Of a stretch of DNA of 64,000 bases, positions 1,436-56,995 are shown in pieces. The DNA comes from Nocardiopsis sp. N85 (GTDB lineage: Bacteria > Actinomycetota > Actinomycetes > Streptosporangiales > Streptosporangiaceae). A program made the translations under genes and the position numbers. Numbering within the stretch: position 1 is the first letter of the stretch; each line of letters starts with the position of its first letter. The notes beneath the pieces were generated by a model that made no database searches, was not told where the DNA came from, and saw nothing but the letters and a program-made list of their open reading frames with translations. The DNA is taken from NCBI RefSeq assembly GCF_028882275.1, contig NZ_JARBUT010000001.1, positions 186,001-250,000 on the forward strand. Reading direction: 5' to 3'.

Positions 1436-1447
1436 CGTGTCTTCCTC

Positions 1448-2761
1448 TCACCGACCGGCTTCGGGGACCACACCGAACACCGCGGGGACGGTCTCGCCCC
1501 TGTGATGGATCCGCTCGGCGACGTTCCGGGGCAGCGGAAAGTGCAGGAACCGCCCGTCCACCGTCCGGTTCGGGCCGAGCGGCAGCGACTCGAAGCGCAG
1601 CACCGGGTCCAGCCGGAACTCCTCCCGGCGCTTGGACGAGACCACGCTGATCTCGTTGATCCGCCGCGACCCGTCCGGCCACCGCCCCAGGTGCACGATG
1701 GCGTCGACCGCGTTGTTGATCTGGTCGCGGATCGCCTCGTAGGGGATCCGCCCGTCGCCCATCGTCGCCAGCGTCTGGAGCCGGTGGATGGCGTCGTCGG
1801 CCGAGTTGGCGTGCACGGTCACCAGGGACCCGTCATGGCCGGTGTTCATGGCCTGGAGCATGTCGATGGTCTCCTCGCCTCGGACCTCACCGACGATGAT
1901 CCGGTCCGGGCGCATGCGCAGCGCGTTGCGCACCAGATCGCGGATGGCCACCTCGCCCCGGCCCTCGATGTTGGGCGGACGCGACTCCAGCCGCACCACG
2001 TGCTCCTGCATGAGCTGGAGTTCGGCGGAGTCCTCGATGGTGACGATGCGTTCGGTGGGCGGCACGAACGCCGACAGGGCGTTGAGGAACGTCGTCTTAC
2101 CGGTGCCCGTACCGCCGGACACCACCACGTTGAACCGCGCGCGCACCATCGCCGACAGCAGCACCCCGGTGGCCTGGTCCAGGCTGCCCATCCGCACCAG
2201 TTCGTCGATGGGATAGGGCTTGGGGAACCGCCGGATGGTGAGGACCGGACCCGACAGCGACAGCGGCGGGATGATGACGTTGACCCGCTCACCGGTGGGC
2301 AGGCGCGCGTCGACCATCGGCGAGGACTCGTCCACCCGGCGGTTGACCAGCGACACGATGCGGTCGATGGTCTGGTAGAGCTGTTCCTCGCCGTTGAACG
2401 CGGCGTCCACCCGCTGCATGCGCCCACCGCGTTCGATGAACACGTTGTCGGGTCCGTTCACCATGATCTCGGTGATGGTCTCGTCGGCGAGCAGCGGTTC
2501 CAGGACGCCCAGGCCGAGCGCCTCGTCGACCACCCTGCGGATGAGCAGTGACCGTTCCCGGTCCGAGAGCACCGGCCCCTCGCGGGTGAGGATGTGCCCG
2601 ACGACCTTCTCCAACCGCACCCGGCGCTGGGCCAGGGTGAGCCGGGTCAGGTCCTCCAGGTTGATCTCCTCCAGCAGCCGCCGACGCCAGTGCGTCACGC
2701 TGCCGCGATCGGTGCGCGCCTCGACGGCGCGGTCCTCCTCCAACCGGTCCTTCAACCCCAT
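1448..2761 (-). CDS. tadA: TadA/CpaF-family pilus assembly ATPase
   Basis: Cytoplasmic hexameric secretion ATPase of the VirB11/CpaF family that powers Tad pilus assembly; 437 residues. The Walker A motif GGTGTGKTT has its lysine at about residue 222. It is followed by the VTIEDSAEL segment, the [13 protein letters not shown] motif (Walker B/Asp box) and [14 protein letters not shown], all diagnostic of this family. The ATG at 2761 is chosen because a purine-rich GGGGAAGGGG ribosome site lies just upstream; the frame continues upstream to a start at 2791 without a better site. It lies between the TadE-like genes and TadB in one operon. Confidence 0.93.
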
Positions 2762-2800
2762 GACCGTCGACCCCTTCCCCCTGTGGGGCACCGCCCCGTG

Positions 2801-10967: not shown

Positions 10968-11126
10968 TCAGCGGGCGTGGTGGGCGGCGTGCTCCCAGGT
11001 GTGCTCGACCAGGGTCGAGCCGGCCCAGACCAGGGCGGCCACCGCCATGAGGGTCGCGGCGACCGCCAGCACGTAGACGGTGACGGCGATGAGCCGCCGT
11101 GCGGTCCGGTGCGCCGGCGGGGTCAC
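10968..11126 (-). CDS. Tiny single-pass membrane protein, last gene of the GTPase/chaperone operon
   Basis: A 52-residue protein: a short Arg-rich N-terminus, one strong membrane helix (about residues 13-37), and a His-rich tail ending HTWEHAAHHAR. GTG 11126 overlaps the TGA of the upstream GTPase gene by 4 bp (GTGA), which strongly supports both its reality and its start. No family recognised. It may be a membrane tether or partner for the membrane-anchored GTPase encoded just before it. Confidence 0.65.
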   Translation of the reverse strand: MTPPAHRTARRLIAVTVYVLAVAATLMAVAALVWAGSTLVEHTWEHAAHHAR

Positions 11127-12760
11127 GGGTCCCCTCCCCCCACGTCCGCGGGCACCGGGGCGCTCGTCAGCGCCGCGAACGCCCGCCCCTGCCGCTCCAG
11201 GAGCCAGGCCGACAGGACGTCCAGGCTCGGGTCCGCCCGCCAGTCGGGCCCGGCCACCGAGGACGTCAGGAACACCCGCACCGAACCGAAGTCCGCCCGG
11301 GCCGCCGCCAACAGGTTGCCCAGTCCCAGCCGCCGGCCGGCCCACTCCTCCACCGCCGTCCCCGCCGGATCCACCGACGTGCCCCGGACCAGATCGGCCC
11401 GTGTGATCACCACCGCCAACCGGCTCCCCGTCGGACCGCGCCCCAGGGCCCGCCACTGCCGTTGGATCTCGTCGCGCACCGCCCCGTAGGCCAACTCCGG
11501 GTCGCGGGTGTGCGAACGCTCCCCGGCCAGCCGTCCCTGTTCGCCCGCGGTCAGGCAACGCCACACCGCCGGGATCCCCAGCGGATCCACCACCAGCACG
11601 AACGTCGACGCCTCACCCAGGTAGGTCAACTCCTCGGCGGTCGTCGAACGGTTGAACCGCTCCCCGGCGGCGTCGAACACCTGGAGGACCAGGGTCCTGC
11701 GCCCCGCGCCCAGCCGCACCGTCGCCGCGCGCACCTTGCGCCCCGGCGGGGTGGGCCGGGTCCGGTGCCCGGGGGTCAACGCCCGCGCGCCCTCGCGCGC
11801 GCTCCGCGCCGCCTCCTCGCCGACCGGCTCGACGTAGGCGTTCGGGTCGCGCAGCGCCGCCTGGGACAGGGCCAGGTGCAGGCCCGCCGCCAGCCGGGTC
11901 TTGCCCGCACCGGTGCCGCCGAACAGCGGCAGGGGGAATTCCCGGGACTCGCCCGGCCGGTGCTCCAAGGGCCGATCGCAGTGCGGGCACAGCGTCTCCA
12001 GGTCGGCCGCGCCCAGCAGGATCAGTGTGGGCAGGGTGCGATCGCACCGGCAGCGCCGCCGCACCAGACCGCGCGCGCCCGGACGGACCTTGTCGTGCCG
12101 CCGGCCGCACCGTCCGCACAGGTACGACGGGTAGGGCAGCCGCCGGTAGCACTCCGGGCACACCATCCGGATCCGTCGCACCGTCCGCAATCCCGTGTCC
12201 ACCAGCCGCAGCAGACCGGCAAGGCTCCAGGCCACCGCCAGATAGCCGCCCACCACGAGCGCGTACGCGGTGATGTGGGGGAGCAGCAGCACCCCCCACA
12301 GGGCCGACGCCCGCCAGGTGCGCCCCGCCACCGCGCACAGATCCCACCAGGCCGGACCGCCGTGGTAGCCCCGATGCGCGGGGTCCTCGCGCTCCTCGGA
12401 GGAGGGCTCCCCGGGGTGATCGCCCAGGAACATCACCCGGTGCACCTCGCGCAGGTACACCCCGGTGAGCACGCACAGCCCCACCACGGCGACCACCACC
12501 CCGGCGCCCACCAGCAGGGTCACGGCCGCCGCCAGGATCCACCAGCGGAACACCACCACGACGACGCCGATCCCCACCGGCAGCAGGATCCCCAGCAGGA
12601 CGGCCGCCGGACGCGCGGCCCCGTCGTCCCGCCCGCGCGTACCGGCCGCCGCCCTCCCCGGGGAACGGACGGCCGCCGACGGACCCGCCCGCGGCGGCCG
12701 GCCGCGATCGTCCCTTCGCGCGGTGGGGTACGGCGCGCCCGTCCCTCCCCGCCCGGTCAT
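11123..12760 (-). CDS. Membrane-anchored zinc-ribbon GTPase (DO-GTPase2-like)
   Basis: A 545-residue protein. A polar, Arg/Gly-rich first 50 residues precede two membrane helices (about 52-72 and 75-102) and another hydrophobic region at 153-186. A cysteine cluster follows (CPEC at ~201, CGRC at ~215, CRC at ~237, CPHC at ~258). The P-loop FGGTGAGKT has its lysine at about 287, a switch-like VFDAAGERF lies near 390, and VVITRAD (NKxD-equivalent) further on. This arrangement matches the double-GTPase type 2 family predicted in bacterial conflict systems. ATG 12760 overlaps the stop of the GAP1-like gene (ATGA). GTP hydrolysis is inferred. Confidence 0.75.
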   Translation of the reverse strand: MTGRGGTGAPYPTARRDDRGRPPRAGPSAAVRSPGRAAAGTRGRDDGAARPAAVLLGILLPVGIGVVVVVFRWWILAAAVTLLVGAGVVVAVVGLCVLTGVYLREVHRVMFLGDHPGEPSSEEREDPAHRGYHGGPAWWDLCAVAGRTWRASALWGVLLLPHITAYALVVGGYLAVAWSLAGLLRLVDTGLRTVRRIRMVCPECYRRLPYPSYLCGRCGRRHDKVRPGARGLVRRRCRCDRTLPTLILLGAADLETLCPHCDRPLEHRPGESREFPLPLFGGTGAGKTRLAAGLHLALSQAALRDPNAYVEPVGEEAARSAREGARALTPGHRTRPTPPGRKVRAATVRLGAGRRTLVLQVFDAAGERFNRSTTAEELTYLGEASTFVLVVDPLGIPAVWRCLTAGEQGRLAGERSHTRDPELAYGAVRDEIQRQWRALGRGPTGSRLAVVITRADLVRGTSVDPAGTAVEEWAGRRLGLGNLLAAARADFGSVRVFLTSSVAGPDWRADPSLDVLSAWLLERQGRAFAALTSAPVPADVGGGDP

Positions 12761-15252
12761 CGCCGTCCCTCCCGGGAACCGAACAGGCCGCGGCGGACCC
12801 GGTGCTCCCGTGCCCACCCCTCGAACCCGGCCGCCTCCTCGCGCGGCAGCCTGCGGCGCAGCTGGGTCGTGTGTCGCCGCCTCCAGCCGCTCAGCGCGGG
12901 GAGCAGCACCTCGCGCTCCACGTCCGACGCCCGTGCCCGCCCGAGTTCGGGACGTCCCGCCACCAGGTACACCCGGGCGGCGGTCCCCACGTCCGGGGGG
13001 TCGTCGCGCAGCCGTCGCGCGGCCAGCGCGCGGTAGGCCTCGAAGACCGACTCCGGGCACTCCCGCAACACCGGCGCCACCGTCTCCGGATCCCACCGGT
13101 CGAGCAGGAACGCGGCGGCCGTGCGCCGTGCGACCTCGGCCACCGTCGGGTGCGCCCGGTCCAGCAGCGCCCACGGGTCGGCCGGGCACGCGCGGGCCGC
13201 CGGTCGCCACCCCTCGCGCCAGGGTCCACGCTCCTCCGCCCCGGTCGGCCCCGGGCCGCGCCCGGGTTCCTCCGGCGGGGACCCCCGCTCGGGCGCGCGG
13301 GAGGGGGACCCGAGCGCGTTCGCCCAGGCTGCGAGGGCCACGCCCAGCGCCGACCGGTCCCCGAGCGCCCGTGCCGCCTCGCCGGGGAGCAGATCGCGGA
13401 GCGGATGCCCCGCCAGTTCCTCGGCCAGCGCGTGCCAGGAGGGTTCGGCGTCCACCGGTGGAACGGCGACCACCGCCCCCGCCACCCAGCCGGCGACGTC
13501 CGACGACACCCGGAGCCCCGGGCCCAGCACCCGCAGCGACCCCAGGGCCGCCCGTGGCCCGTGCCCCGGACCCCACACCTCCGTCAGCAGCGCCGCGTCC
13601 ACATCGTGCGCGGCCACCCCCGGGGCGCCCGCCTCCCGGCCCTCGGCGCGGATCGCCGCCACGTCCGCCAACAACCGGGCCGGGTCGGCCCGTCCGTCGG
13701 TGCCCAACCGGCGCAGTTCGCGCAGCAGTGCGCCGCCGCCGTCGGTGAACAACGCGCCCGCCGGCCCGGACGCCAGCGCGCCGAGCCGGGGTCGGGGCAG
13801 GTCGGCCAGCACGGTCGCCGTACCCCGCCGCATCTCAGGGTGCGCGCCGAGCAGGGCGGCGACGGCCGGCGCGGGATCCTCGTCGGGCGGGGCCGCCGCC
13901 AACAGCGGGGCCACCACCCCCCTCCCGTACCGTTCCAAGGCCAGCGCCGACGGCACCAGGCCGCAGGCCCGGGCCCAGCGCAGCACCTCCGCCGCCCGCT
14001 CCGGCGCCGTCCATCCGGTGTCATCGCCTCCGGCGAACGGCGTCGACAACAGATCGGTGATCCGCTCGCGTGCGGCCGCCCGCACCGCTTCGGACCGCAT
14101 CGGACGCGGGGCCGGGACCGGCGTGCCCGTCGCGATCCCGTCCAGGCACCGGTGGACCAGCACCCGCTCCAGTCGCCCGATCGTCGCGACCGACCCCGTT
14201 CGGTGCGCCACCCGTTGCAGGTCGACCAGGCCGTGGTCGTCCGCACCGCCGCCGTCCACGACCAACCCCACCAGGGACGCGGCGTCGGCCGCGGGCAACC
14301 ACTCCACCGCCGCCGACAACCAGGAGCGCACCGCCCGCAGATCCGCCACCGACACGTCGGCCGCCCCGTGGGCGAGCAGGTCGGCGGCGGTCAGCACCGG
14401 GTACCAGTCCGCCAACGACTCCTCCCGGCCGCCGGCGTGCCGTCCGGCCGACCGCCACAGCGCCTCGGCGCCCACGGTGCCCGCCGCCACCGACCGGGCC
14501 GCCACCACCATGGTCCGGGATGACGGTTCCGGCAGCGCGTCCATGGTGCCCAGCACCGGATCCACCACGGTGAACCGGCCCCGCAAGGGCTCCAGGTCGC
14601 TTCCCGGCGGCACCCCCACCACGTGCGCGAACGTCTCCTCCGGGCTGGCGCTGTAGGTCGCGAACGCCAGCCCCCGGGCCCGTTGCGGAGGCAACAGATG
14701 GGCCAGGGCGGCCACCCAGTGCGCGACCGTCGCGCTGTCGGCGACCAGCACCACCGGCCGTTCCCCGCCGACCGCGCCGTCCACCGCCGCGAGCAACCGC
14801 GCCACCAGTTCCGGAGGGCGACGGCGCACCCAGACGTCGGTGCGCGCCCGGTCCAGCGGGCCGCCGCACACCTCCAACACCGGCAGGTAGGGATCGGCCA
14901 CCGGCGACGACACCCAGAAATCGGCGTCCCACAGCTCGGCGGGCAGCGGCCCGCCCGATCCCACCAGGCTGTGCGCGAAGTAGTTGCCCGGACGCCCCGA
15001 CGGGTCCGGGCCGCACGAGACGATCCGGCTCACCACCGGGTACCCGCCCAGGTCGGGGGAGTAGCACAGGTTCACCGGGTGCCCCTCCACCCGGTCGGCC
15101 GGATCCGACCGGGGCGGTTCGTACACCGTGAACCGCTCCACCTCGCGCAGCACCCCCTGGTCGATCCCCGGTGTCGCCGCGTTGAACTGGTAGCCCGCGT
15201 ACCCCGACAGTCCCTGCTCGCACGAGGTGTAGTAGAGCTGCGCGAAACCCAT
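12757..15252 (-). CDS. GAP1-like GTPase-associated protein
   Basis: An 831-residue protein. The N-terminus carries QLYYTSCEQGLSGYAGYQFN and then VNLCYSPDLGGYPVVSRI, GNYFAHSL, which I recognise as the GTPase-associated protein 1 N-terminal domain that accompanies double-GTPase genes. The rest is a long Ala/Leu/Arg-rich helical region with no catalytic motif, ending in a basic stretch. ATG 15252 is chosen because GGAGG lies 9 nt upstream; a GTG at 15285 lacks a good site. It lies between the two GTPase genes. Likely a scaffold or sensor acting with them; the molecular role is unknown. Confidence 0.75.
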   Translation of the reverse strand: MGFAQLYYTSCEQGLSGYAGYQFNAATPGIDQGVLREVERFTVYEPPRSDPADRVEGHPVNLCYSPDLGGYPVVSRIVSCGPDPSGRPGNYFAHSLVGSGGPLPAELWDADFWVSSPVADPYLPVLEVCGGPLDRARTDVWVRRRPPELVARLLAAVDGAVGGERPVVLVADSATVAHWVAALAHLLPPQRARGLAFATYSASPEETFAHVVGVPPGSDLEPLRGRFTVVDPVLGTMDALPEPSSRTMVVAARSVAAGTVGAEALWRSAGRHAGGREESLADWYPVLTAADLLAHGAADVSVADLRAVRSWLSAAVEWLPAADAASLVGLVVDGGGADDHGLVDLQRVAHRTGSVATIGRLERVLVHRCLDGIATGTPVPAPRPMRSEAVRAAARERITDLLSTPFAGGDDTGWTAPERAAEVLRWARACGLVPSALALERYGRGVVAPLLAAAPPDEDPAPAVAALLGAHPEMRRGTATVLADLPRPRLGALASGPAGALFTDGGGALLRELRRLGTDGRADPARLLADVAAIRAEGREAGAPGVAAHDVDAALLTEVWGPGHGPRAALGSLRVLGPGLRVSSDVAGWVAGAVVAVPPVDAEPSWHALAEELAGHPLRDLLPGEAARALGDRSALGVALAAWANALGSPSRAPERGSPPEEPGRGPGPTGAEERGPWREGWRPAARACPADPWALLDRAHPTVAEVARRTAAAFLLDRWDPETVAPVLRECPESVFEAYRALAARRLRDDPPDVGTAARVYLVAGRPELGRARASDVEREVLLPALSGWRRRHTTQLRRRLPREEAAGFEGWAREHRVRRGLFGSREGRR

Positions 15253-15288
15253 CGACCGGGACCTCCGCCCCTCGGTGATCGCCACGGA

Positions 15289-16491
15289 TCAGGACCGCCC
15301 CTCACGGGAGGGGACGACGCCGAACCCCCCGAGCATCCACAGGAACGGGTCGGCCACCCGGTAGGGGCGCACCCCGCCCTGAAGACGCTGTTCGGCGTCG
15401 GGCGCGTGTCCCAGCGCCGACACCCCGAAGTACCTGGCCTCGGCGTAGTGGTTGGTGATGTGCGCGTCGATCCGCCCCCCGTCCCACCGGTGCAGCAAAC
15501 GGCGGATCTGGGCATGCACGTCGCGGCTGTCGGACTCGTCGAAGTAGGGGGAGTCGGGCTGGGGACGGCGTAGCGGCGACCCCGGGTCGAGCGCGTCGTG
15601 GAACACGTCGAGCTTGGTCAGGCACACCGCCATCGGCACCGGGATGAGCCGCGACGGCGACCCGGTCCGGCGCAACAGCAGGTCGGTGACCCTGCTCAGC
15701 ATGTCCAACGGCGGATGGTCGGACCGGTCCCGCGGCGGCGGGGTGCCCGGGGCGGCCTCGGCGTGGGCGCCCCGCATCCGCAGCGGGTCCAGGAGCAGGA
15801 TGATCCCGTCGGCGTTGTCCAGGTAGCGCAGGTTGGTCTCCACGCTCGCCTCGGTGGTGAGGTCCTCGCCCGCCGTGTCGAAGAACGACAACAGCGTGTG
15901 TCGGGGGCGACGGCCGAGCGGACCGCGCCGCCGGGACGTGAACCGGAACACCAGGGGTTCGCGCGCGACCCCGGTGCGGCGGGTGGCGCCGAGCAGCCGG
16001 GCGTCGTCGTAGAGCGGCGACTCGTAGTCGGTGTGGAACCGGTGCCGGGTGTGATCGTCGGACCCGCCCACCGAGGCCTGGAAACGCGCGCCCACCCGGT
16101 GCATCAGCTCGTGGATGAGCACGGTCATGAACACGGTCTTGCCCGCCTCCCTGGCGCCGACCAGCGCGATGAGCCGGCCCGGGATGCGCCCGAAGTTCAC
16201 CGGGAGCCGAGCGTGACAGGTGACGCACACCTGGGCCCCGGTGGACACGCCGCAGTCGGGGCACAGCGCCCGGGCGCGGCGGCCGTCGGCGGCGAACACC
16301 GGCGGCAGGCGTTCGCGTCTGCCCAGATGGAGGCGGATCGCCGTGTCCTCGACGGGGGCGCAGCGGCGGCCGTCCGGTCCGGGGCGGCCGCCGCACCGGA
16401 ACAGGATCAGCCGCTCGGTGAACCGGGTGTAGCAGTAGGGGCACACCAGGCGGTCGCCGCGCGTCGGGCGCAGAAGGTCGAGCGGTGTCAC
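15289..16491 (-). CDS. Zinc-ribbon GTPase (DO-GTPase1-like)
   Basis: A 400-residue soluble protein. Paired cysteines at about 17/20, 33/44, 77/80 and 89/92 suggest zinc-binding ribbons ahead of the GTPase core. The P-loop ALVGAREAGKT has its lysine at ~118, SFFDTAGED is the Walker B/switch II segment, and AVCLTKLDVF is the base-recognition (TKxD) motif. It fits the double-GTPase type 1 family. GTG 16491 overlaps the preceding stop by 4 bp, with AAGGAG 8 nt upstream. Having both GTPase types with GAP1 in one operon suggests they work as a set. Confidence 0.75.
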   Translation of the reverse strand: MTPLDLLRPTRGDRLVCPYCYTRFTERLILFRCGGRPGPDGRRCAPVEDTAIRLHLGRRERLPPVFAADGRRARALCPDCGVSTGAQVCVTCHARLPVNFGRIPGRLIALVGAREAGKTVFMTVLIHELMHRVGARFQASVGGSDDHTRHRFHTDYESPLYDDARLLGATRRTGVAREPLVFRFTSRRRGPLGRRPRHTLLSFFDTAGEDLTTEASVETNLRYLDNADGIILLLDPLRMRGAHAEAAPGTPPPRDRSDHPPLDMLSRVTDLLLRRTGSPSRLIPVPMAVCLTKLDVFHDALDPGSPLRRPQPDSPYFDESDSRDVHAQIRRLLHRWDGGRIDAHITNHYAEARYFGVSALGHAPDAEQRLQGGVRPYRVADPFLWMLGGFGVVPSREGRS

Positions 16492-19400
16492 AGGCGGAGC
16501 TCCTTCACCGAGGGTTGACACAACCGGGCGCCGTCGGCGTCCTCGCCGACGGGCAGGCACACCAGCCAGGCGGGGCCTTCGGCGCGCGGCGGGCGGACCC
16601 GCAAGGACGACCGCTGCCCCGCGCTCAGGTGTCGGGGCGGGAACACGGCCAGCACCCGCCCCTGGTCGACACGGTCCGGGGGGAAGGCGCCCTCGGCGTA
16701 GACGACGGCGATCTCGGGGGTGACGCAGTCCGTGTCGGCGACGAGCACGATCTCGCGCTCCCGGCGCAGCAGCCCGGCGGGGGAGACGTGGTAGTCCAGC
16801 GCCGCCCAGCCCGGGACGGTGAGGGCGGTGGGCGGGCCGACGACGCCGCCGACGACGGACCGCACGGTCACCCGCACCGGACCGGGGCCCATCGGCGCCT
16901 CGAAGCCGCCCTCGGCCTCATACCGCGGGCGGTCGGAGACCGCCTCCCGGGGTCCGTCTGCGGGGACGGTCGGCGACGGGACGAGGGGCGACACCGCCGA
17001 GGCGGCCGGTCGCCAGGCGACCACGGCGGTGGCCGCCTCCTGCGGCCAGACCCAGGCCAGCCGGACCACGTCGCCGAACCGCTGGGCGCGCAATCCCGTC
17101 ACCGCCGGCACGGCCACCACCCGGACCCGGTCACCGACCACGACCTGGTCGCCGCGGGAGGTCACCGCCACCACGTGGTGCGTCCCCGGCTCCAGTCGGA
17201 TGCGCACTCGTGCCCGCTCCTCTCCGACACCGGGTGCCGTCGTCGGAACCGGGGGCGGTTCCCCGCTCTCCTCGACGCCTCCGATCCCCCCGGCCGTGGC
17301 GGTGCCCGGTTCTCCGGTGGTGGTCGTGCCCTGGCCCCCGGCCATGGTCGTGCCCGGTTCTCCGGTGGTGGTCGTGCCCTGGCCCCCGGCCATGGTCGTG
17401 CCCGGTTCTCCGGTGGTGGTCGTGCCCTGGCCCCCGGCCATGGTCGTGCCCGGTTCTCCGGCGGTGTCCGTGCCCGGACCTCCGGCCGTGGTCGCGTCCG
17501 TGTGCGTGTCCCGGATCGGCGGCGCCGAAGGACCACGGGGCCGTCCGGCGGTCGCGTCCGGCACCTCCGCCCCGGTCGTGTCGGCGAGGACCGGCGGTTC
17601 GCTTCCGTGCGCGGCGAGCTCGGCCGGGGGCACGGCCGCGCCCGCCGGCCACGGCGGCGGCTCGGCGTCCACGCGCAACGACACCCGTCCTCGCGGCGGC
17701 GGGGTCCACGAGGCCACGAACCCGCCCTCCCCGTCCGGGACCACGAGCAGATCCGTCACCGGCGACGGAGGCGGACCCGGCACCACGCGCCTGACCAGGC
17801 CCTCCGAGCCGCGCGCCGACCCCCCGGAGGTGAGGTACACCGCCCGCACCCGGTAGTAGTACTCCACGTCCGGGCGCACCTCCGGGTCGGTGAACCCCAT
17901 CCCGTCGGTGGTCACCCGCGTTCCGTCCCCGGCCCGGGGCGGCGCGCCCTCACCGCGCACGACCTCCACCCGCACCGCCTCCCGCGGCACCCGCCACGAC
18001 CCCGAGATCCCGTGCTCCCCGGCGCGCACGCACAGGTCCTCGACCTCGGGGGTGAGCATCACCGGATCCGTCTCCACCGCTTCGGAGAGGCCCCGGTCCT
18101 CCCGCACCGCCCGCACCGTGTAACGGATCTCCGCGCCCACCGGCGGCTCGGGGTCGATGAGCTCCGTCCCGGTCACCTCGCCCATCGGCGTCTCCCGGGC
18201 ACCCGCGCTCCGCCCGATCCGCCGCACCACCCGGTAACCGATCCGCCCCACCAGGCTCGGGCTCGGCCGCCACACCACCACGGCGCCCAGCCCCTCCACC
18301 CGGGCCCGCACCTCGCGGGGCGGCGACGGCGGCACCTCGCCCAGCCGTGCCCGCAGCACCTCGTCGTCGGCCGCGAGGGCGCAGGCCTGTGCCAACGCCC
18401 GGGCCGCCGCCTCGTCACGGCCTTCGCCCAGCGCCCCCTCCGCCTCCCGCGACAACTCCTCCACCCGGGCCGCACGGTCACGGACCTGGGCGATCAGCCC
18501 GTGATCGGGGGGCAACTCCGCCATCGCCGCCTGGGCCTGTCGCAACTGGTCGTCGGCCAACAGGTCGCGCACCTCGCGTTCGGCCCGGGAGATCCGGTCG
18601 GAGCCGGCGGGGCGGCGGCGCACCGCCGCCGCCAACAGGGTCGCCTCCGCCTCGGTCAGCCCCCTCCGTACCCAGGGCCGGGCCAACGCCGCCTCGGACA
18701 ACTCCGCCGGGCGCGCCCGCAGATCCTCCGCGACCTCCCACAACGCCACCGCGTCGCGCTCCTCGCGGGAGGAACAGGAGCGCAGCACCCCCAGCACGCT
18801 CTCCGCCGCCGCCTTGCCCTCCGTCATCGGCTCCACCTGGACGCGGGCGATCGCCGCGCTCAGCGCCGCGTCGTCCAGGACTCCGCCGTCGGCCAACCGG
18901 AACCCGTCCACCACGGTGAACCCGCCCGCCAACCGGCCCGCCCCGAAGACCACCTCCGGGGAGAACACCGCGCCCCGGGTGCGCAGGTTGTCGCGCAGGC
19001 TCCGAAAGGTCCGGATCGGCGGGTGCGCGGGCGGTTCCGGCAGCCGCTCCACCACCCGTACGCCCCGTTCGCGCAGCAGGCGTTCGGCGTCCGCCTCGGG
19101 CAGCCCCACCGAACCCGCCATGGTCCGCAACGCCCACCGGTCCACCAGAGTGGTGGTGAGACCGTCGACGATGTCGGCCCACTCCGCCATCGCCCGTCGA
19201 GTCTGCTCGGCCCGCACCCGACGGAAGTGCTCATGGGTGAGCGCGCCCTCCCGGCCCAACCGCTCGTGCGCCGCGATCAGCTCCACCAGGACCCGCCGCA
19301 GGGTGCGCCGCCGCGTCTGCAACCCCCGCCAGTAGGTGCACACCGCCGTGACGTGCGCGATGAACCCCTCGGGGTCACCGGCCAGCCTCCGCTCCAACGC

Positions 19401-19508
19401 GGGACCGACGCCGTAGCGCGCGAACAGGTCGGCGGGCGGCCCGCAGGTGCGCGCCGCCGCCAGCACCTCGTCCTCGTACCGCCGTCGTTCCCGTACATCC
19501 CAGGGCAT
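16488..19508 (-). CDS. Large multidomain protein with fibronectin type III repeats
   Basis: A 1006-residue protein. Residues 1-~330 are mostly alpha-helical and charged; ~330-400 is a helical TPR-like segment. From ~405 several fibronectin type III-like beta domains follow (for example VVVWRPSPSLVGRIGYRVVRR, YYYRVRAVYLTSGG and FVASWTPPPRG). A Gly/Thr-rich linker at about 680-745 includes a perfect 16-residue tandem repeat. Two further beta domains end the protein. No signal peptide, so it is probably cytoplasmic, unlike most fn3 proteins. It starts 75 bp after the Hsp70 gene and overlaps the next GTPase gene by 4 bp. Probable interaction scaffold; function unknown. Confidence 0.7.
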   Translation of the reverse strand: MPWDVRERRRYEDEVLAAARTCGPPADLFARYGVGPALERRLAGDPEGFIAHVTAVCTYWRGLQTRRRTLRRVLVELIAAHERLGREGALTHEHFRRVRAEQTRRAMAEWADIVDGLTTTLVDRWALRTMAGSVGLPEADAERLLRERGVRVVERLPEPPAHPPIRTFRSLRDNLRTRGAVFSPEVVFGAGRLAGGFTVVDGFRLADGGVLDDAALSAAIARVQVEPMTEGKAAAESVLGVLRSCSSREERDAVALWEVAEDLRARPAELSEAALARPWVRRGLTEAEATLLAAAVRRRPAGSDRISRAEREVRDLLADDQLRQAQAAMAELPPDHGLIAQVRDRAARVEELSREAEGALGEGRDEAAARALAQACALAADDEVLRARLGEVPPSPPREVRARVEGLGAVVVWRPSPSLVGRIGYRVVRRIGRSAGARETPMGEVTGTELIDPEPPVGAEIRYTVRAVREDRGLSEAVETDPVMLTPEVEDLCVRAGEHGISGSWRVPREAVRVEVVRGEGAPPRAGDGTRVTTDGMGFTDPEVRPDVEYYYRVRAVYLTSGGSARGSEGLVRRVVPGPPPSPVTDLLVVPDGEGGFVASWTPPPRGRVSLRVDAEPPPWPAGAAVPPAELAAHGSEPPVLADTTGAEVPDATAGRPRGPSAPPIRDTHTDATTAGGPGTDTAGEPGTTMAGGQGTTTTGEPGTTMAGGQGTTTTGEPGTTMAGGQGTTTTGEPGTATAGGIGGVEESGEPPPVPTTAPGVGEERARVRIRLEPGTHHVVAVTSRGDQVVVGDRVRVVAVPAVTGLRAQRFGDVVRLAWVWPQEAATAVVAWRPAASAVSPLVPSPTVPADGPREAVSDRPRYEAEGGFEAPMGPGPVRVTVRSVVGGVVGPPTALTVPGWAALDYHVSPAGLLRREREIVLVADTDCVTPEIAVVYAEGAFPPDRVDQGRVLAVFPPRHLSAGQRSSLRVRPPRAEGPAWLVCLPVGEDADGARLCQPSVKELRL
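17303..17466. repeat. 48-bp minisatellite inside the fn3-protein gene
   Basis: Three consecutive units of exactly 48 bp plus a partial fourth (landmark TTCTCCGG at 17310, 17358, 17406 and 17454). Each unit is 16 codons and encodes a Gly/Thr-rich linker (reading like GTTMAGGQGTTTTGEP), so copy-number change would lengthen or shorten the linker without shifting frame. Confidence 0.95.
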
Positions 19509-19583
19509 CGCCGTGTCGCCCCCTCGGAGAGTCCGCCCTCACAACGCTTCCGCGCCCGCGCCCGCGTGGACGCGGGCCATCGC

Positions 19584-21215
19584 TCACCCGGAGGTGCGGA
19601 TCGACGCGATGGCGTCCCGGGCCCGGCGCACCTCTTCCTCGCCCATGCCGCCGATCCGGATGTCGAACCGGATCTCGTTGCCGTTGCCGGGATCCCAGCC
19701 GCGCACGGTGAGCATCCCGGTCTCGCCCAGGCGGAACTCGATCCGGAACGGCGTCCCGGCCGGCCCCTTGGGCAACCCGGTGAGCAGGGCGTCCCCGATC
19801 CGGACGTTGTGCTCCAACTCCTCGGAGGCCACCGATCCGGCCTGCTCCCACACGTCGATCTCGACCTGTTCCTGGTTGGGCCACACCGTCGCGAAGCCGT
19901 CCTCCACCGTCACCGGCAGCGGGGTGTTGGCCCGGATGAGGTGACTGACGTACTGGCGGGCCCGGCCGGGGTCGTGGGCGAACACGGGGTCGGAGGCGTC
20001 GGTGGCCTTCACCCCGAACGCGCGCGGGGCCACGCCCGTGACGGTCTTGTTCGCCAACCGCTCCACCTCCTCCCGGGTGATGCCCAGGGCCGCGCCGACC
20101 TCCTCGGCCTTGCGGGCGCGTTCGACGGGGTCGAGGCCCGGCTCCTCCATGACCTTCTCGACCTGTCGCACCAGGGCGAACAGGGCCGCGCCCTTGGCCA
20201 CCGCCAGGTCGGGTTCGTGCAGGTGGGGGGTGAACCCGAAGCGTTCGCGCAGGGACCGGGCCACCACCGGCATGCGGGTCATCCCGCCGACGAGCAGGAC
20301 GTCGTCGAAGGACTCCACACCGCGTTCGCGCGCCGCGACCAGGGTCCGCTCGGTGATGGTCAGGGTGCGTTCCAACAGATCGGAGGTGAGCGCCTCCAGA
20401 TCGCCGCGCGTCAGCTCCACGCGCACCGTCGCGCCGGCGAAGCGCAGGTTGTGCCGGGCGCGCTCGCGGGTGCTCAGGGAGCACTTGATCCGTTCGGACG
20501 CGGCGGCCACGTCCTGGAGGAACTGTTCGTCCCCGGCCGGATCGGGTCGGGGATGGCGCTCGGTGAACAGCTCCAACAGCAGGTCGGCGAGCTTCTCGTC
20601 CCAGTCGGCCCCGCCCAGGCGGTGGTCGCCGTCGGTGCACACCACGCGCACGTCGTCGTCCTCCACCCGGATCACCGTGGTGTCGAAGGTGCCCCCGCCC
20701 AGGTCGTACACCAGCAGGTGACGGGTCCCGGAGACGGCGTCCAGGCTCTGGTAGTGCAGGGCGGCCGCCACCGGTTCGGGCACCACGTCCAGCACGTTGA
20801 GCCCGGCGATGAGGCCGGCCCGTCGGGTCGCCTCCTTCTCGTGCACGCCGAAGTAGGCGGGCACGGTGATGACCACGTCCTCGACCTTGTCCCGGGTGTG
20901 CTCACCGGCGGCGCGGACCAGTTCGCGCAGGATCAGCGCGGAGATCGACTCGGGGCCGTGGGACCCGCCGTGGAACTCGTAGCGGGCTTCGGTGCCCATC
21001 TGCCGTTTGACCAGGGAGACGACCATGTCGGGAAAGAGGAGGGCGGTGTTCTTGGCCTCTTCGCCGACCACGACGTTGTGGGCGGACTCGAAGTACACGA
21101 CGGAGGGGGTGGTGTCGTTTCCCATGGCGTTCTTGGTGACGGTGGCCCGGCCGGTGCCGTCGACGAAGGCCGTGCAGGAGTAGGTGGTGCCCAGGTCGAT
21201 TCCGTAGGTGGTCAT
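19584..21215 (-). CDS. Hsp70-family (DnaK-like) protein lacking the C-terminal lid
   Basis: A 543-residue ATP-dependent chaperone homologue. Clear nucleotide-binding motifs: GIDLGTTYS (phosphate 1, residues 5-13), VVITVPAYFG, VPEPVAAAL, LLVYDLGGGTFD (phosphate 2) and VLLVGGMTRMP (adenosine). A short linker leads into a beta-type substrate-binding domain (about 390-530), but the sequence ends without the ~80-residue helical lid of DnaK (~610-640 residues). ATG 21215 overlaps the GrpE-like stop (ATGA). Being fixed in an operon with GTPases and a dedicated GrpE, it is a specialised chaperone, not the housekeeping DnaK. Confidence 0.9.
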   Translation of the reverse strand: MTTYGIDLGTTYSCTAFVDGTGRATVTKNAMGNDTTPSVVYFESAHNVVVGEEAKNTALLFPDMVVSLVKRQMGTEARYEFHGGSHGPESISALILRELVRAAGEHTRDKVEDVVITVPAYFGVHEKEATRRAGLIAGLNVLDVVPEPVAAALHYQSLDAVSGTRHLLVYDLGGGTFDTTVIRVEDDDVRVVCTDGDHRLGGADWDEKLADLLLELFTERHPRPDPAGDEQFLQDVAAASERIKCSLSTRERARHNLRFAGATVRVELTRGDLEALTSDLLERTLTITERTLVAARERGVESFDDVLLVGGMTRMPVVARSLRERFGFTPHLHEPDLAVAKGAALFALVRQVEKVMEEPGLDPVERARKAEEVGAALGITREEVERLANKTVTGVAPRAFGVKATDASDPVFAHDPGRARQYVSHLIRANTPLPVTVEDGFATVWPNQEQVEIDVWEQAGSVASEELEHNVRIGDALLTGLPKGPAGTPFRIEFRLGETGMLTVRGWDPGNGNEIRFDIRIGGMGEEEVRRARDAIASIRTSG

Positions 21216-21769
21216 GTGCCTTTCCCTGTTGCGGCGTCCTCTTCGGGGCGCGCCGGCCCGACATGGCGGAAGAAACGGGCCTGGACCCTGCGGCGGATCC
21301 GGCCGGTGACGGTGTCGCGGAATCCGGGGGCGGTGACCTCGGCGACCGTGTTCGCCCGCGCCGGGTCGGGATCGTCGATGGTCGACAGGGGGCGGTGCAG
21401 GTCGGCCCGGAAGGGGTCGCCGATCTCGGCCTCGATCGGTTCGACACCGATCCGCTCCAGGGCCAGGAGGGTGTCGTCGGCGAAGCCGACCATCAGGTCG
21501 GCCAACCGTCCCTCGCCGCGTTCACGCAGGCCCCGGGCCTCACGGTCGAGCTGATCGTGCAGGTGGACGAGGTCGGTGACGACGGGGTCGAAGAGGGCGC
21601 GGGTCTGCTCGGAGCGCAGTTCCCGGTTCTCGGCGTGCAGGCGGTCGATCACCGCCTCCCGGTGCCGGGCGCGCTCGTCGAGAGAGCCCAACCGGTCGTC
21701 GAGGGAGGCGAGGATCCGTTCCAGGGGGAGGGGGGAGTCGGGGGGTGCCGTGTCGTCGGACGCCGCCAT
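21212..21769 (-). CDS. GrpE-like nucleotide exchange factor
   Basis: A 185-residue protein with an N-terminal coiled coil (about residues 15-65), then a central segment ALFDPVVTDLVHLHDQLDREARG and FADDTLLALERIGVEPIEAEIGDPFRADLHRP, which matches the GrpE head where a conserved DLL..LD/L-x-x-x-G-hydrophobic pattern contacts Hsp70. ATG 21769 has AAAGGCGG just upstream; a GTG at 21784 is less likely. It is the first gene of the operon and overlaps the Hsp70 gene, so it probably serves that Hsp70 only. No J-domain protein is encoded nearby. Confidence 0.8.
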   Translation of the reverse strand: MAASDDTAPPDSPLPLERILASLDDRLGSLDERARHREAVIDRLHAENRELRSEQTRALFDPVVTDLVHLHDQLDREARGLRERGEGRLADLMVGFADDTLLALERIGVEPIEAEIGDPFRADLHRPLSTIDDPDPARANTVAEVTAPGFRDTVTGRIRRRVQARFFRHVGPARPEEDAATGKGT

Positions 21770-22049: not shown

Positions 22050-23051
22050 TCACAGACCCAGGACGGAGAGCGCGACGACCAGGGCCAGGGCGGCCAGGAC
22101 CGCGAACAGGAGCAGCGCGCCGCGGGCGTGTTCGCGGCGGGACGGGTGATGGGCCAGACGCAGCGGCTCGGGCAGGGGGCTCCAGTGGGCGGCCAGCGCC
22201 GTGCGCACCGCCGCGCGGGGATGGGCGGCGCCGGTGAGACGGGAGAGCAGTTCCGCGGCGGTCGGCCGCTCGCGGGGATCGCGGCGCAGTGCCTCCTCGA
22301 CCGGGCCGCGCAGGTCCTCGGGCAGGCCGGAGAGGTCGACGCCCTCACGCCACAGGCGTTCGCGATCCTCGTCGGACTCCACCGCGCTGCGCCCGGTGGC
22401 GGCGTACAGCACGAGGGCGCCCCAGGAGAACACGTCGTGGGCGGGCGCCACCGGCCGCCCCGGTCCACCGGCGTTCGGGTCCACGACGAGCGGCAGCGCC
22501 GGGTCCACGGTCTCGTGGTACTCGCGGTAGTCGCCCGGCCCCGGTCCCGCGTCGCAGACCAACGGCCCGTCCGGGCCCAACAGGACGTTGAACACCGACA
22601 GGTTGCCGTGGGTCAGGTCGGCCGCGTGCAGGTCCGCCAGGGCCTCGGCCAGCACGGCGGCCACCAGGCGCACCCGCACCTCCGGCAACGGTCCCGTCGC
22701 GTGCACCAGGGTGCCCAGGTCCGGGCCGGGGACGTAGGAGGTCGCGTACCACAGGCGTTCGCCACCCGTCCCGCTCGGCAGGGAACCGGTCGCCACCAGC
22801 GGCGGCAGCCGGGGGCACCCGACCCGCCCGACGAGCTCCAGCCCGCGCCGGATCCGCGCCGCCTCCCTCGGATCCTCGGTCAGCACCCGGGAGAGCACCT
22901 TGACCGCGTACCACCGGCCGGCCTCGTCGGTGGCGGCGTAGGTGTAACCGAGGTTCATGCCCCCGATCAGACCGCGGCATCGATATCCGTCCACCCGTTC
23001 CGGATCGGTGGCGGTCAGCGGGCGCAGGGGACGGCGGGGGAGTGAGGTCAT
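22050..23051 (-). CDS. Membrane-anchored protein kinase-like protein, probable pseudokinase
   Basis: A 333-residue Ser/Thr kinase fold with a C-terminal membrane helix (about 311-333). The VAIK-type lysine is present (YAVKVLS, K51), as is an aC-like region. The catalytic loop reads HGNLSVFNVLL at 148-158, so the HRD/HGD aspartate is replaced by Asn, while the metal-binding Asn155 is kept. The DFG motif is DAG (167-169). Loss of the catalytic Asp suggests little or no phosphotransfer. ATG 23051. It is followed 280 bp later by the GrpE-Hsp70-GTPase operon in the same direction, so it may belong to that system as a sensor. Confidence 0.75.
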   Translation of the reverse strand: MTSLPRRPLRPLTATDPERVDGYRCRGLIGGMNLGYTYAATDEAGRWYAVKVLSRVLTEDPREAARIRRGLELVGRVGCPRLPPLVATGSLPSGTGGERLWYATSYVPGPDLGTLVHATGPLPEVRVRLVAAVLAEALADLHAADLTHGNLSVFNVLLGPDGPLVCDAGPGPGDYREYHETVDPALPLVVDPNAGGPGRPVAPAHDVFSWGALVLYAATGRSAVESDEDRERLWREGVDLSGLPEDLRGPVEEALRRDPRERPTAAELLSRLTGAAHPRAAVRTALAAHWSPLPEPLRLAHHPSRREHARGALLLFAVLAALALVVALSVLGL

Positions 23052-29626: not shown

Positions 29627-32600
29627 TCAGGCCGGGACCGGTGCGTGCGGGTCGTCGCCCTCGCCCGGCTCCTCCACCGGGTCGTCGGCCTCCGGGTCGG
29701 TGCGACGGAACGCGGTGACGTTCAGCGCCGAACCGGAACCGTGCTCCATGACGCGCAGGACGTCCCGGACCTCCCGGAGCAGGCCCTCCGGCACCGTGCC
29801 GAGCCGGACGCCCTCCCGCGCGAGGTACTCGGCCTGCGTCATGATCCGCCAGGCGGCCAAGGGGTCGTCGGGGAACGTGATCTGGGCCAGTGTCTTCATC
29901 GCCCGCAACTGCCCCGAGCGGTGCCGCAGCCCCCGGTAACCCTCGACCGCCACGCGGGCCGACGCCTCGGCCTCCGCGGTCCGTTCGACCCGCCGCAGTG
30001 ACTCCGCCGCCATGCGGTGCGCTCGGGCGTGCCACCACTTGTCGCCCGAGGCCCGGAAACCCTCGGCGGCCTGGAGCATCTCCTCCTTGCCGCGACCTCG
30101 GTCCAGGTCCATCAAGGCCTGGCCCAGCACCAGGCGGGTGCGCATGATCCCCCACGTGTCGCCGAGCTCGGTGAACATCCGCTCCGCCCGCCTCAATCGA
30201 TCGATCTGGTCGTGCACCTGCCAGGTGTCCCGCAGCCACTCGCGTCGGCGGCGCCCGAGGAAGGGGAGGGGGCGGGAGGGGAGACGAGGGTGGTCGGGGT
30301 CCTCCTCGACGCCGAGCCACTTCTCCAGGACCCCCCGATCCGGCATGCCGTCGGCGAACAGGCCGGCCACCTCGGCCTCCTGCTTCTCCCGCCAACGCCG
30401 ATTCCACGCGATCAGCCGGCGGCGTTCCCGTTCCCGGGCGGGATCGAGCAGCTGCTCGCACATGCGGACCTGCTTGTTGAGCAGATGGGTCGGCAACTGT
30501 CCCAGGGAACGCAGGTAACGGGCGTGGTACCAGTCTCCGTTGGGCGTCTCGGAGACCTGACGGCGTCCCTCCTCAAGAACGAACCAGGCGTTGAGCGCGA
30601 ACCCGCGCAGCCGCAGCACCTCGCCCAGCCGCAACCACACCCGGGGCCACTGGTCCGGGGCCTGCCCCGATCGTTCGAGTTCCTCCCGGGCGAGGGAGAG
30701 CTGCCGGTGCGCCTCCTCCTGGTGCCCCTGGAAGCGGTAGACCTCCGCCAGGTTGCACAGCGAGCGCACCAGCCACCAGATGTCCCGGTGGTCCGTGAAG
30801 ATCCGCACGGCCTCGTCGATCTCGGCCCGGCCGTCGTCCAGGTCGCCGCGCCGGTACAGGTTCACCCCGACCGCCCGGTGCGCTCGGGCCCGCCAACGCG
30901 GATCGACCGACCCCGGGTCGTCCAGGGATTCCAGAACGGTCGAGGCGGTCACCGCCAGTTCGTGGCCGGTGTCGTGGTCACCGTGCCCGCCGGCCACCTC
31001 GGCCCGGTCGAGTAGGGCGATCGCGCAGGCCACGGGGTCATCGGTCGCCAGCGCCAGTGCGGTGGCCTCACCTGCGGCCTCCCGCATCGCCTCCCAGCGG
31101 ACCCGTCCGGTCCGGCAGAGCAGGGAGAAGGCCCGACGCAACCGCCACCCGTACCCCGCGACCTCACGGCGTTCGACGTCACGGGCGGGGAGCGTCTCCG
31201 GGCGGGTCCACCGAAAGCAGGTCTCGAAGCCGCGTTGTTCGCTCTCCAGCCAGGCCAGCGGGTCGACCGCGGGGAACCGGGGGAGCGGGCCCGCGTTCGC
31301 GGCCGGACCGTCGGCGCCCGTCGGCCGCACCGGGACCCCCGGTGGGTTCCGGGCCTCCGGGGACCCCGGTGCGCCCGGCCGGAGGGGCTCCGGACCGAAA
31401 CCCCACTCGTGCGGGGCGGCCCGCCGTGCCGCCTCCTCGGCGATCAGCGTGTACGCCCGCAACAGCCGCCGCACCGCGTGCTCCAGCCCGTCCCGGGACC
31501 AGTCCGGCAGCTCCGCCTCCGGAACGCCGAGCATGCGGGGGCCGGCCGTCACCAGGGTCTCGCGCACGTGCTCGTGCAGCTGGAAGCGCTCGAACCCCCC
31601 GGCCCTGTACATGAAGGTCACCAGGTAGCGGTGGCCCAGGCGTTCCAGCATGAGGGCCGCCCTCTCCTCGGACACGTTCATGAGCGCCGCGGCCGCCCAG
31701 GCGGTGAAGGTCGTCGCCCCCACCCCGGCCAAGCGGCTCAGCAGCAGTCGTTCCTCCCCCGTGCACTGGCGCAGTCCGAACGCCAGGGACCGGACGACGG
31801 CCTGAAGGCCGGACACGGCGGGGAACCCCTCCCGGTCGCCCATACGCCGCAGCAGATCGGCGGCGCCCGGTCCGTTGTCCTGCGCGATCTGCGCGCCCAC
31901 CAGGCACAGCGCCAACGGGAACCCGTGGCAGGCGGCGACCAGTCCCGGCAACGCCTCCCGGTCCGCCGCGGACGGCGTGCGGGGGCGTCCGGCCGTCAAC
32001 CGGTTCAGGAGCAGCAGTCCTTCCTCGGGGGACAGCGGACCCATCCGGCGCAGCGTCATGTGCCCCGGGGTCCCGTGCAGATCGGTGCGGCTCGTGATGA
32101 GCACCGCGCACCCCGGGCCCACGGGCAGCAGCGGCTCCACCTGTTCGTAGTCCTTGGCGTTGTCGAGGACGAGGAGCAGCCTGCGCCGTTCGGTCGCGGT
32201 CTTCCACGATCCCGAGAGTTCGTCCAGGGAGGCCCCGTCGGGGACCCGCACCCCGATCGCGGTGAGCATCTGGGCGAGGATCTCCGAGGAGCGCCGGGGC
32301 ACGCGGTGCACCGACGGGGCGTCGTCGGAATCGCCCCGGCGCGCGTGCCGGGAGACGGAACCGTAGAGCTCGAACTCCAGTTCGCCGTCGGGGAAACGGT
32401 CACCGACCTCGGCGACGACCTGGGAGACGAACTGGCTCTTGCCGGTGCCGCCCTCGCCGGTGACGGCGATGATCAACGGACCCGCGCCGCGTCGCCGGGA
32501 CAGACGGCGGGTGCGGCGCCGGGGGAATCGGGAGAACGCGGCCCGCACCTCGGCCATGAGGTCGGTGTGCCCGATGAAGTGTTCGACGGTCGCGGGCAGA

Positions 32601-32866: not shown

Positions 32867-33077
32867 GTCCCGCCCTTCCCGGAGGCGCCGCAGGCCCTTG
32901 TGCGTCGGGCTTGCGGGGCCGGGCAGCCGATGGGGAACCGATCCTGCCGAGAGCGGGAATCCGGTGTCCAGGGTGCCGGGGAGGCCGGGGCCGGTGTTCA
33001 TCCGCTCGCCCCGGTCCGGTCACCGGGCGGTCACCGCGCGCGGTTCCGTGGAGGCTCCGGGGACCGGGCGCCCGGTC

Positions 33078-56549: not shown

Positions 56550-56563
56550 AAGAAAGAGAGCCG

Positions 56564-56995
56564 ATGGATCCAATTCGACAGCAGGAGCTCGTGCGCGAGA
56601 TCGCCCATGATCTTGTTCAGGCTGCCCCACGCGGCTGGAGTTCGATGAGCTACAGGTTTGAGTACATCGGGCGCGTTTCGGCAAGTGAGAACCTCGTGAC
56701 CTTTGAAAGTGGAGAGACGGTGAGGAAGCGGCATCCAAATTCTCTAGACAATAAAGCTGAAAATCTCAAGGTTGACATGTACCAGGAGGGCAAGGGGACG
56801 TGGCTTGCCATGTCGGTCAATGTAACGAAGCCTGGTAAGTTCAAGGTCGATTTCTACTACGATAAAGAATTGGGGGTTCACCCGCTCCCCGCATCTCCGG
56901 GTAGTTATGCTTTCGAGCTGGAGAAGTTTCCCCGGGATCCCGACGCCATTTCTGATTGGATTCGAGAGCGGATTGGTCAAGTGCGGGAGGAGTAG
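56564..56995 (+). CDS. YezG/DUF600-type immunity protein
   Basis: A 143-residue acidic protein starting 14 bp after the toxin gene with AAGAAAGAGAG upstream. The pattern QQELVREIAHDLVQAAPRGWSSMSYRFEYIG and, later, KPGKFKVDFYYDKELGVHP fits the YezG/DUF600 immunity family that neutralises nuclease-type toxins in Bacillus and others. It shares the lower GC of the toxin tip. It presumably protects the producing cell and kin from the adjacent nuclease. Confidence 0.8.
   Translation: MDPIRQQELVREIAHDLVQAAPRGWSSMSYRFEYIGRVSASENLVTFESGETVRKRHPNSLDNKAENLKVDMYQEGKGTWLAMSVNVTKPGKFKVDFYYDKELGVHPLPASPGSYAFELEKFPRDPDAISDWIRERIGQVREE

Follow-up and report, generated by a model that had tools for sequence, protein, structure and literature searches.

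What is a GrpE–Hsp70 pair doing in one operon with two GTPases and a GTPase-associated protein, and does this combination represent a system of its own kind? The question is raised by seven genes at positions 10968–21769 (minus strand) of a 64,000-nucleotide stretch of the Nocardiopsis sp. N85 genome, herein called the window. Going from 21769 down to 10968, they encode GrpE, Hsp70, an FN3 protein, a soluble GTPase, GAP1 (GTPase-associated protein 1), a membrane GTPase, and a 52-residue protein with one helix. By hidden Markov models (HMMs), gene order, and trees, the operon is shown to belong to the Hsp70/GrpE theme of GAP1-N2-type DO-GTPase systems, as a divergent member from the Nocardiopsis clade. 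Such systems were described by Kaur, Burroughs, Iyer, and Aravind in 2020, whose section on them places the HSP70 plus GrpE theme in ~14% of the neighborhoods, predominantly in actinobacteria and firmicutes (PMC7159879). Because the combination is already described there as one GAP1-N2 theme, it is not a new joining. What looks new relative to that section is the loss of the J-contact in Hsp70, the tiny membrane protein, the fold match of GAP1 to DENN proteins, and a series of losses within the clade. The section mentions neither a separate tiny membrane gene nor a J-contact change in Hsp70s, and the passages of the article that were searched for DENN, longin, and TagF contain none of these terms (PMC7159879). 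Among open-license PMC papers, no experimental study of a DO-GTPase/GAP1 system was found.

The seven same-strand genes had been put forward by a sequence-only reading of the window, and open reading frames (ORFs), composition-based gene calls, and translations confirm them. That reading had counted five 4-bp start/stop overlaps; there are four (21212–21215, 16488–16491, 12757–12760, and 11123–11126), the junction between the first GTPase gene and GAP1 being a 3-bp gap. A single 75-bp gap within the operon had been described correctly. Among the families named for the operon, GrpE, HSP70, GAP1, and DO-GTPase2 are matched by HMMs, and DO-GTPase1 is not. The first GTPase (400 residues, 15289–16491), which had been taken for DO-GTPase1, reaches E 0.074 with that family (PF19975) versus E 9.1e-9 with DO-GTPase2 (PF19993) and is a soluble zinc-ribbon GTPase of the DO-GTPase2 type. 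Its alignment conserves G[AV]RxxGKT, DxAGED, and [TS]KxD together with the CxxC pairs. The second is a membrane-anchored zinc-ribbon DO-GTPase2 (11123–12760, at most 545 residues, PF19993 E 2.8e-13), whose ATG at 12760 overlaps gap1, with later GTG starts being possible. DO-GTPase2 lies above the Pfam cut-off for both GTPases; the zinc ribbons are judged by eye from the CxxC pairs, with Pfam DZR below its cut-off (E 0.019 and 0.036). Where two GTPases occur, the section by Kaur et al. describes one with four N-terminal helices and one C-terminal helix (PMC7159879). In the membrane GTPase of the window, helices precede the P-loop and none follows it, so that the published C-terminal helix is not found. 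Helices lie only ahead of the P-loop in 20 of 23 membrane GTPases, one helix follows it in two (loci L091 and L106), and no P-loop was found in L089.

How widely is this arrangement shared? The expectation of the sequence-only reading that the chaperone pair is kept beside the GTPase genes is borne out by loci of other actinobacteria, Firmicutes, Chloroflexota, and Acidobacteriota. A pattern-limited GTPase-1 profile scan of named genomes, which favors relatives of the window's first GTPase, yielded 58 loci. The window clade comprises 25 of them (L056–L080), mostly from Nocardiopsis, with single Streptomonospora, Streptomyces, Actinomadura, and "Glycomyces" records. Herein, the soluble GTPase is present in 25 loci, FN3 and GAP1 in 24 each, the membrane GTPase in 22, Hsp70 in 4, and GrpE in 2; some of the contigs are cut, and the Hsp70 and GrpE of L056 sit on another contig of the same genome (L036). 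The other 33 loci contain GrpE (21), Hsp70 (22), FN3 (27), the soluble GTPase (28), GAP1 (25), and the membrane GTPase (24). An unbroken GrpE–Hsp70–FN3–GTPase order is seen in 15 of these 33 and all six genes in a row in 12, some loci being cut by contig ends. Within the window's genus, GAP1-N2 is found in 28 of 37 genomes. The nine without a match include three that are incomplete or fragmented: G013 and G017 are 84–85% complete, and in G027 a contig end carries GrpE, Hsp70, and the first part of FN3 (L041). No GAP1-N2 match was obtained in 23 relatives outside the genus. At E ≤1e-90, the window-type Hsp70 occurs in 10 of the 37 genomes with 73–100% identity and a second Hsp70 type in 4 with 42–44% identity, two genomes carrying both. 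Of the 25 named clade loci, 17 have an acyltransferase gene on their upstream side and 10 a YCII-family gene on the downstream side; most clade loci without these flanks are cut by contig ends, and L074 has different neighbors.

A Ser/Thr kinase gene lies 5′ of grpE in the window (22050–23051, minus strand); it is AfsK-like and probably a later insertion. It was rejected as an eighth member, the acyltransferase–grpE interval having no gene call in L036, L038, L039, and L040. Three further records stand out. The record Glycomyces fuscus (L062) holds a Nocardiopsis-type operon and flanks at Nocardiopsis-level identity and may be misnamed. In Nocardiopsis sinuspersici, the locus is present in two near-identical copies on two contigs (L060 and L066), possibly an assembly duplicate. 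In Nocardiopsis salina, the second system (L085/L047) has a short GAP1 frame and an FN3 frame broken into two ORFs that overlap; this copy may be decaying or misassembled.

The Hsp70 of the operon (543 residues, 19584–21215, PF00012 E 1e-88) consists of a nucleotide-binding domain and a β substrate domain and has no C-terminal lid. It is 39% identical to the genome's own DnaK over 487 columns, and alignment with DnaK reveals an altered linker with ~30 extra residues ahead of the β substrate domain. The GrpE-like nucleotide exchange factor (185 residues, 21212–21769, PF01025 E 1.1e-8) shares a 4-bp overlap with hsp70 and is retained in the nearest orthologous loci (L036, L038, L039, and L040). 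In DnaK, R167 is the site at which the aspartate of the J-domain HPD motif acts, and it pairs with aspartates of the linker and the substrate domain. The passages that describe this contact report somewhat higher basal activity and ineffective J stimulation upon alteration of R167 or its partner residues, and a variant modeled there is R167D (PMC7289447). The operon proteins were compared at these positions in an alignment of 30 DnaK rows, 33 operon Hsp70s, and 11 second Hsp70s, from which eight duplicate loci had been dropped; three DnaK rows were misread frames and were excluded in a recount, leaving 27. The equivalent of Escherichia coli R167 is arginine in 27 of 27 DnaKs versus 0 of 33 operon Hsp70s, which carry Gly (14), Asp (13), Ser (3), Asn (2), or Tyr (1) instead. 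The window Hsp70 has Asp at this position and also misses the linker Asp; an Asp stands at the D393 equivalent in 1 of 33 operon Hsp70s and 2 of 11 second Hsp70s. The equivalents of K70, E171, and T199, which we take to be the catalytic residues of the ATPase, are kept in 33 of 33.

In a tree of the nucleotide-binding domain, the operon Hsp70s are separate from DnaK (support 100), and the window clade forms one branch (100). This tree covers the operon and second Hsp70s, with DnaK rows of relatives (14 of the 27) as its root and only other Hsp70 family. The second Hsp70s are nested among the operon Hsp70s; their genes occur in L083, L086, L087, L090, L091, L093–L096, L107, and L108, and none of the 11 has Arg at the R167 equivalent. 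Because the J-trigger arginine and the linker residues are missing, DnaJ would not be needed by the operon Hsp70, and we infer from these alignments that it cycles without it.

If DnaJ is not its partner, which protein is? The FN3 protein is the likelier direct partner of Hsp70. This predicted adaptor (1006 residues, 16488–19508) has no Pfam fn3 match of its own; its homolog in L046 passes Pfam fn3 (E 1.3e-6). An AlphaFold2 model built from 31 sequences (mean predicted local distance difference test score, pLDDT, 83) shows an almost all-helical head at 1–391, FN3 domains from ~400, and a low-confidence insert at 644–762. Its best Foldseek match in the PDB is a fibronectin FN3 structure (3t1w, E 1.1e-14), and the modeled helical hairpins at 305–391 could be TPR-like. 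According to the section by Kaur et al., the FN3 protein of the theme is typically fused to DnaJ or TPR (PMC7159879). In the window's FN3 head, Pfam gives no DnaJ or TPR match at E ≤0.1, a comparison with J-domains by hhalign yields a probability of 0.2, and no HPD is visible by eye.

Loss of the chaperone within the window clade is shown by a graded series of loci. The full set is present in the window, L038, L039, and L040, and Hsp70 without detectable GrpE in L042 and L045 (tblastn to E 0.05). C-terminal remnants of Hsp70 immediately precede FN3 in L064 (60% over 76 residues, E 4.5e-20) and L068 (2e-14), with a weak one in L073 (1.4e-4), these E-values being computed for the 23-locus set. 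Hsp70 is missing from L051–L053, L058, and others. A lipoprotein-like ORF (by eye) of 334–344 residues sits at the place of the chaperone in L051 and L052; a role as its replacement is not supported. Conversely, L043 and L044 keep Hsp70 and FN3 with no GTPase or GAP1 match within 19 and 18 kb, respectively (only 1.4 kb upstream in L043). Both genes are stop-free there, with raw ratios of nonsynonymous to synonymous differences (pN/pS) of 0.09 for Hsp70 and 0.37 for FN3, which points to purifying selection on Hsp70. No acyltransferase match was found at these two loci, so that their chromosomal place may differ, and each of the two genomes carries a second system elsewhere (L046 and L047). The proposal that Hsp70–GrpE holds the GTPases inactive is thus not favored: the core occurs without Hsp70 in 16 of the 23 window-clade rows of the GTPase tree that could be scored, and in two genomes Hsp70–FN3 stands without adjacent GTPases.

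Of the 14 scorable loci that lack Hsp70, seven have an eroded FN3 head (L064 and L068–L073); the head is intact in the eight scored Hsp70-bearing loci of the window clade (the window, L038, L040, L041, L042, L043, L045, and L057). Erosion was scored by eye from the sequence in L068 and L071 and by profile coverage in the other five; the heads of L037, L067, and L076, which lie at contig ends, were left out, and L077, L078, and L080 entered the tree mapping without an Hsp70 state. On the GTPase-1 tree, the presence of Hsp70 requires one change (support 54).

GAP1 (12757–15285) matches GAP1-N2 (1.8e-36), GAP1-M (9.8e-21), and GAP1-C (4.2e-44), all above the Pfam cut-offs; its start may lie 33 bp inside this frame, at the Met with which the proteins of relatives such as L038 start. 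Of 34 GAP1 proteins examined, all 34 match N2 and M, and 18 match C (E ≤10). A model based on 34 sequences (mean pLDDT 89.7) exhibits a β-β-α-β-β-β unit at 14–108, an α/β domain at 146–241, helices at 256–330, and an α-solenoid up to 832. VIA-align with 899 re-aligned chains places three DENN entries at the top: 8p0v chain M (Z 9.6), 3tw8 chain C (Z 9.2, DENND1B with Rab35), and 6ekk chain A (Z 8.3, DENND1A). The assignment of these chains to the DENN proteins proper was read from entry titles and chain lengths. The matches cover 248–256 residues of model positions 7–330 with a root-mean-square deviation of 5.5–5.6, and their Z-scores, obtained with one predicted model, are modestly above the stated background. 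Two chains of TagF, a regulator of type VI secretion, reach Z 7.3 and 5.4 and a chain of the folliculin complex Z 6.0. Foldseek ranks the latter chain fourth (E 0.013), behind HEAT-type solenoids, with the highest probability (0.90) among the 50 matches shown. A DENN module is composed of a longin domain, an α/β DENN domain, and a helical d-DENN domain and acts as a guanine nucleotide exchange factor for Rabs. The passages that describe it derive longin from prokaryotic MglB-like domains and place the fused module in the eukaryotic stem (PMC3521125). The DENN likeness of the GAP1 model is taken as a fold-level lead. Its predicted domain order may correspond to that of a DENN module. The order of motifs in GAP1-M may, by eye, resemble a DENN consensus; this likeness is not used as evidence.

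The final gene of the operon (10968–11126) encodes the 52-residue single-helix membrane protein. The sequence-only reading had counted this tiny protein as part of the set, which is supported in actinobacteria. With 40–100 residues, one hydrophobic helix, and a start within −25 to +35 bases of the stop as the definition, such an ORF of 45–74 residues is present at 35 of 39 actinobacterial membrane-GTPase stops, with a 4-bp overlap in 27 of the 35. The same search gave 0 hits at 211 stops of other set or neighbor genes and 11 at 708 other long ORFs. It covered 39 of 47 loci; L103, L105, L106, L108, and L110–L113 were left out, none of them being actinobacterial. The four misses are L077, L078, L086, and L102; in L078 and L102, hydrophobic ORFs of smaller size are present (37 and 35 residues). 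Codon-position counts peak clearly at position 3 in three pairs (L082/L085, L088/L084, and L092/L097), differ little or not at all between positions in the window's trio (35, 40, and 42) and three other groups, and are lowest at position 3 in L069/L070/L072. Given these mixed counts, the coding status of the gene rests on position and conserved pattern. Since most membrane GTPases have helices only before the P-loop, the actinobacterial tiny protein may substitute for the C-terminal helix described by Kaur et al.

How might these proteins work together? We tentatively hold, at somewhat less than even confidence, that the operon is a known-theme member in which a J-independent Hsp70 clamp on an FN3 adaptor feeds a GAP1-controlled membrane GTPase pair. 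The fast-evolving FN3 protein would herein be the sensor or adaptor, and its helical head a private client or docking site for the operon Hsp70. The latter would act as a lidless ATP-driven clamp that is reset by GrpE and either cycles alone or is triggered by FN3. FN3 would pass its state to GAP1, whose longin/DENN-like N-terminal part would set the nucleotide state of the soluble and membrane GTPases, with the membrane GTPase and its tiny one-helix partner as the membrane-side output. The Hsp70–FN3 coupling is proposed because head erosion occurs only in Hsp70-free loci and because L043 and L044 keep both proteins; GAP1 is proposed as the regulator because of the DENN matches and its adjacency to two GTPases, and the membrane output because of the tiny protein and the helices of the second GTPase. 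A stricter version, in which GAP1 is a bacterial DENN-type exchange factor on a membrane DO-GTPase heterodimer, gated by a J-independent lidless Hsp70 clamp on the FN3 sensor, and hence the prokaryotic counterpart of the folliculin–FNIP/Rag GTPase logic, is doubtful.

Several results weigh against this scheme. The FN3 heads of eight relatives (from Firmicutes, Chloroflexota, Acidobacteriota, Thiohalocapsa, and unclassified sources) align collinearly with J-domains at an hhalign probability of 38.6, with an HPD that is degenerate by eye; Pfam DnaJ does not match in the six of the eight that were scanned. The heads of Firmicutes, Chloroflexota, and other relatives may hence be degenerate J-domains, and some relatives may keep a J-like contact. 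The FN3 head is intact in the other seven Hsp70-free loci (L058, L061, L062, L063, L065, L066, and L079). Moreover, the GTPase-1 tree needs just two head losses and the paired test comes down to one independent pair without power, so that head erosion is weak evidence. As for GAP1, VIA-align states a best Z of typically 7 to 8 without a clear match and of ~14 for mostly helical proteins, Foldseek gives the model no match at E 0.001, and the DENN similarity is a property of a single predicted model. PF02141 (DENN) is matched at E ≤10 neither genome-wide nor among the families found in the 34 GAP1 proteins, and PDB sequence profiles give GAP1 no DENN match. The hhalign comparison of GAP1 with TagF is not significant overall (probability 0.4); its best stretch aligns the GAP1 sequence GRPGNYF with DRVGRYF in TagF. 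The tiny one-helix ORF is present in none of the eight non-actinobacterial loci named above, and the interactions and activities of the operon proteins are predicted ones.

Three other explanations compete with the clamp-and-switch scheme. The system could be a regulator of the membrane or envelope in filamentous actinomycetes (polarity, sporulation, or cell-wall assembly), with Hsp70 aiding assembly of an FN3–GTPase complex and no part in defense. This housekeeping role is possible, though it falls short of probable: GAP1-N2 is found in most genomes of the genus and mostly in one shared neighborhood, the membrane GTPase with its tiny helix fits such a role, and the DENN-like fold of GAP1 recalls trafficking regulators. 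However, the nine genus genomes and 23 outside relatives without a GAP1-N2 match suggest that the system is probably not essential, and FN3 and GAP1 evolve fast. Between the window and L038, raw pN/pS is 0.47 for FN3 and 0.50 for GAP1 versus 0.21 for Hsp70 and 0.19 for the first GTPase. The same rates speak for a conflict (anti-phage) system, in which FN3 would sense the invader, the GTPases with GAP1 would set a threshold, and an Hsp70 effector would assemble on or trap invader proteins. The section by Kaur et al. proposes that GAP1-N2 systems function in conflict and that tubulins and HSP70 act in them as effectors that form multimers (PMC7159879). Such a role falls short of probable as well: most of the clade has the core without any Hsp70, which is odd for an effector, and most clade loci occupy one chromosomal neighborhood. 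PADLOC finds no match for the six large operon proteins. The sequence-only reading had seen no obvious effector, and none was found in this analysis either. An anti-phage or defense role is a published prediction only, and because of the shared neighborhood and the PADLOC result, an envelope role is as possible as defense.

An ordinary duplicate DnaK–GrpE pair that came to lie beside the GTPase genes by chance would explain the clear Hsp70 and GrpE HMM matches. It is highly improbable and is refuted by the gene order conserved across several lineages; the separate Hsp70 lineage with its shared loss of J-contact residues also speaks against it, and both DnaJ-domain matches of the genome fall outside the window.

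The window contains further genes of note. A NB-ARC/STAND NTPase with TPR repeats (29627–33001, minus strand) is another protein of predicted-conflict type. A stretch of lower GC content (53091–62465, plus strand) encodes a 1152-residue protein with a non-specific endonuclease domain (PF13930) near its C-terminal end and a "GT4-conflict" glycosyltransferase (PF20706). An AAA_27/SMC-like ATPase and a calcineurin-like phosphoesterase (42615–47518, minus strand) form a pair that we take to be SbcCD-like. A type II/IV secretion ATPase and a T2SSF membrane protein (503–2791, minus strand) resemble a Tad-type pilus cluster.

What would follow from the scheme of an Hsp70 clamp on FN3 upstream of GAP1? 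A system known only from prediction would become open to biochemical tests, namely of DnaJ-free ATP hydrolysis, of its drive by FN3, and of nucleotide exchange by GAP1. Ready-made comparisons exist within one genus, whose loci range from the full set through sets without GrpE or with an Hsp70 remnant to loci without a chaperone and loci with only the chaperone and FN3. If true, an Hsp70 family that keeps the ATPase and drops the J-domain contact would show the Hsp70 cycle rewired for one private client, and a chaperone ATPase cycle would set a GTPase switch. If bacteria have a DENN-like regulator of GTPases, this would also inform how the membrane-trafficking regulators of eukaryotes arose. 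The passages on the origin of the complete DENN module place it in the eukaryotic stem lineage (PMC3521125), and it would then have bacterial relatives.

Besides TagF, three known systems serve as a comparison. With the DENN-module regulators (DENND1A/1B, DENND10, and the folliculin complex), GAP1 may share the longin-like, α/β, and helical order predicted for it, and its gene adjoins GTPase genes. Unlike these, it shows no sequence-level match, continues into a long α-solenoid, and has DO-GTPases rather than Rab or Rag as presumed partners, its exchange activity being putative. With the DnaK–GrpE–DnaJ machine, the operon shares the ATPase residues, the β substrate domain, and the GrpE partner; in contrast, its Hsp70 is lidless and linker-altered with Asp at the position of the J-contact arginine, and no J-domain partner was detected in the operon. 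The closest relative is the published Hsp70/GrpE theme of the GAP1-N2 DO-GTPase systems. The window differs from it by an FN3 head without a detectable DnaJ domain or Pfam TPR, by a membrane GTPase that lacks the C-terminal helix and is followed by a separate one-helix gene, and by a single Hsp70 in a clade whose core is often chaperone-free. In common with this theme, it has GAP1-N2/M/C, a soluble and a membrane zinc-ribbon GTPase, the FN3 protein, Hsp70, and GrpE.

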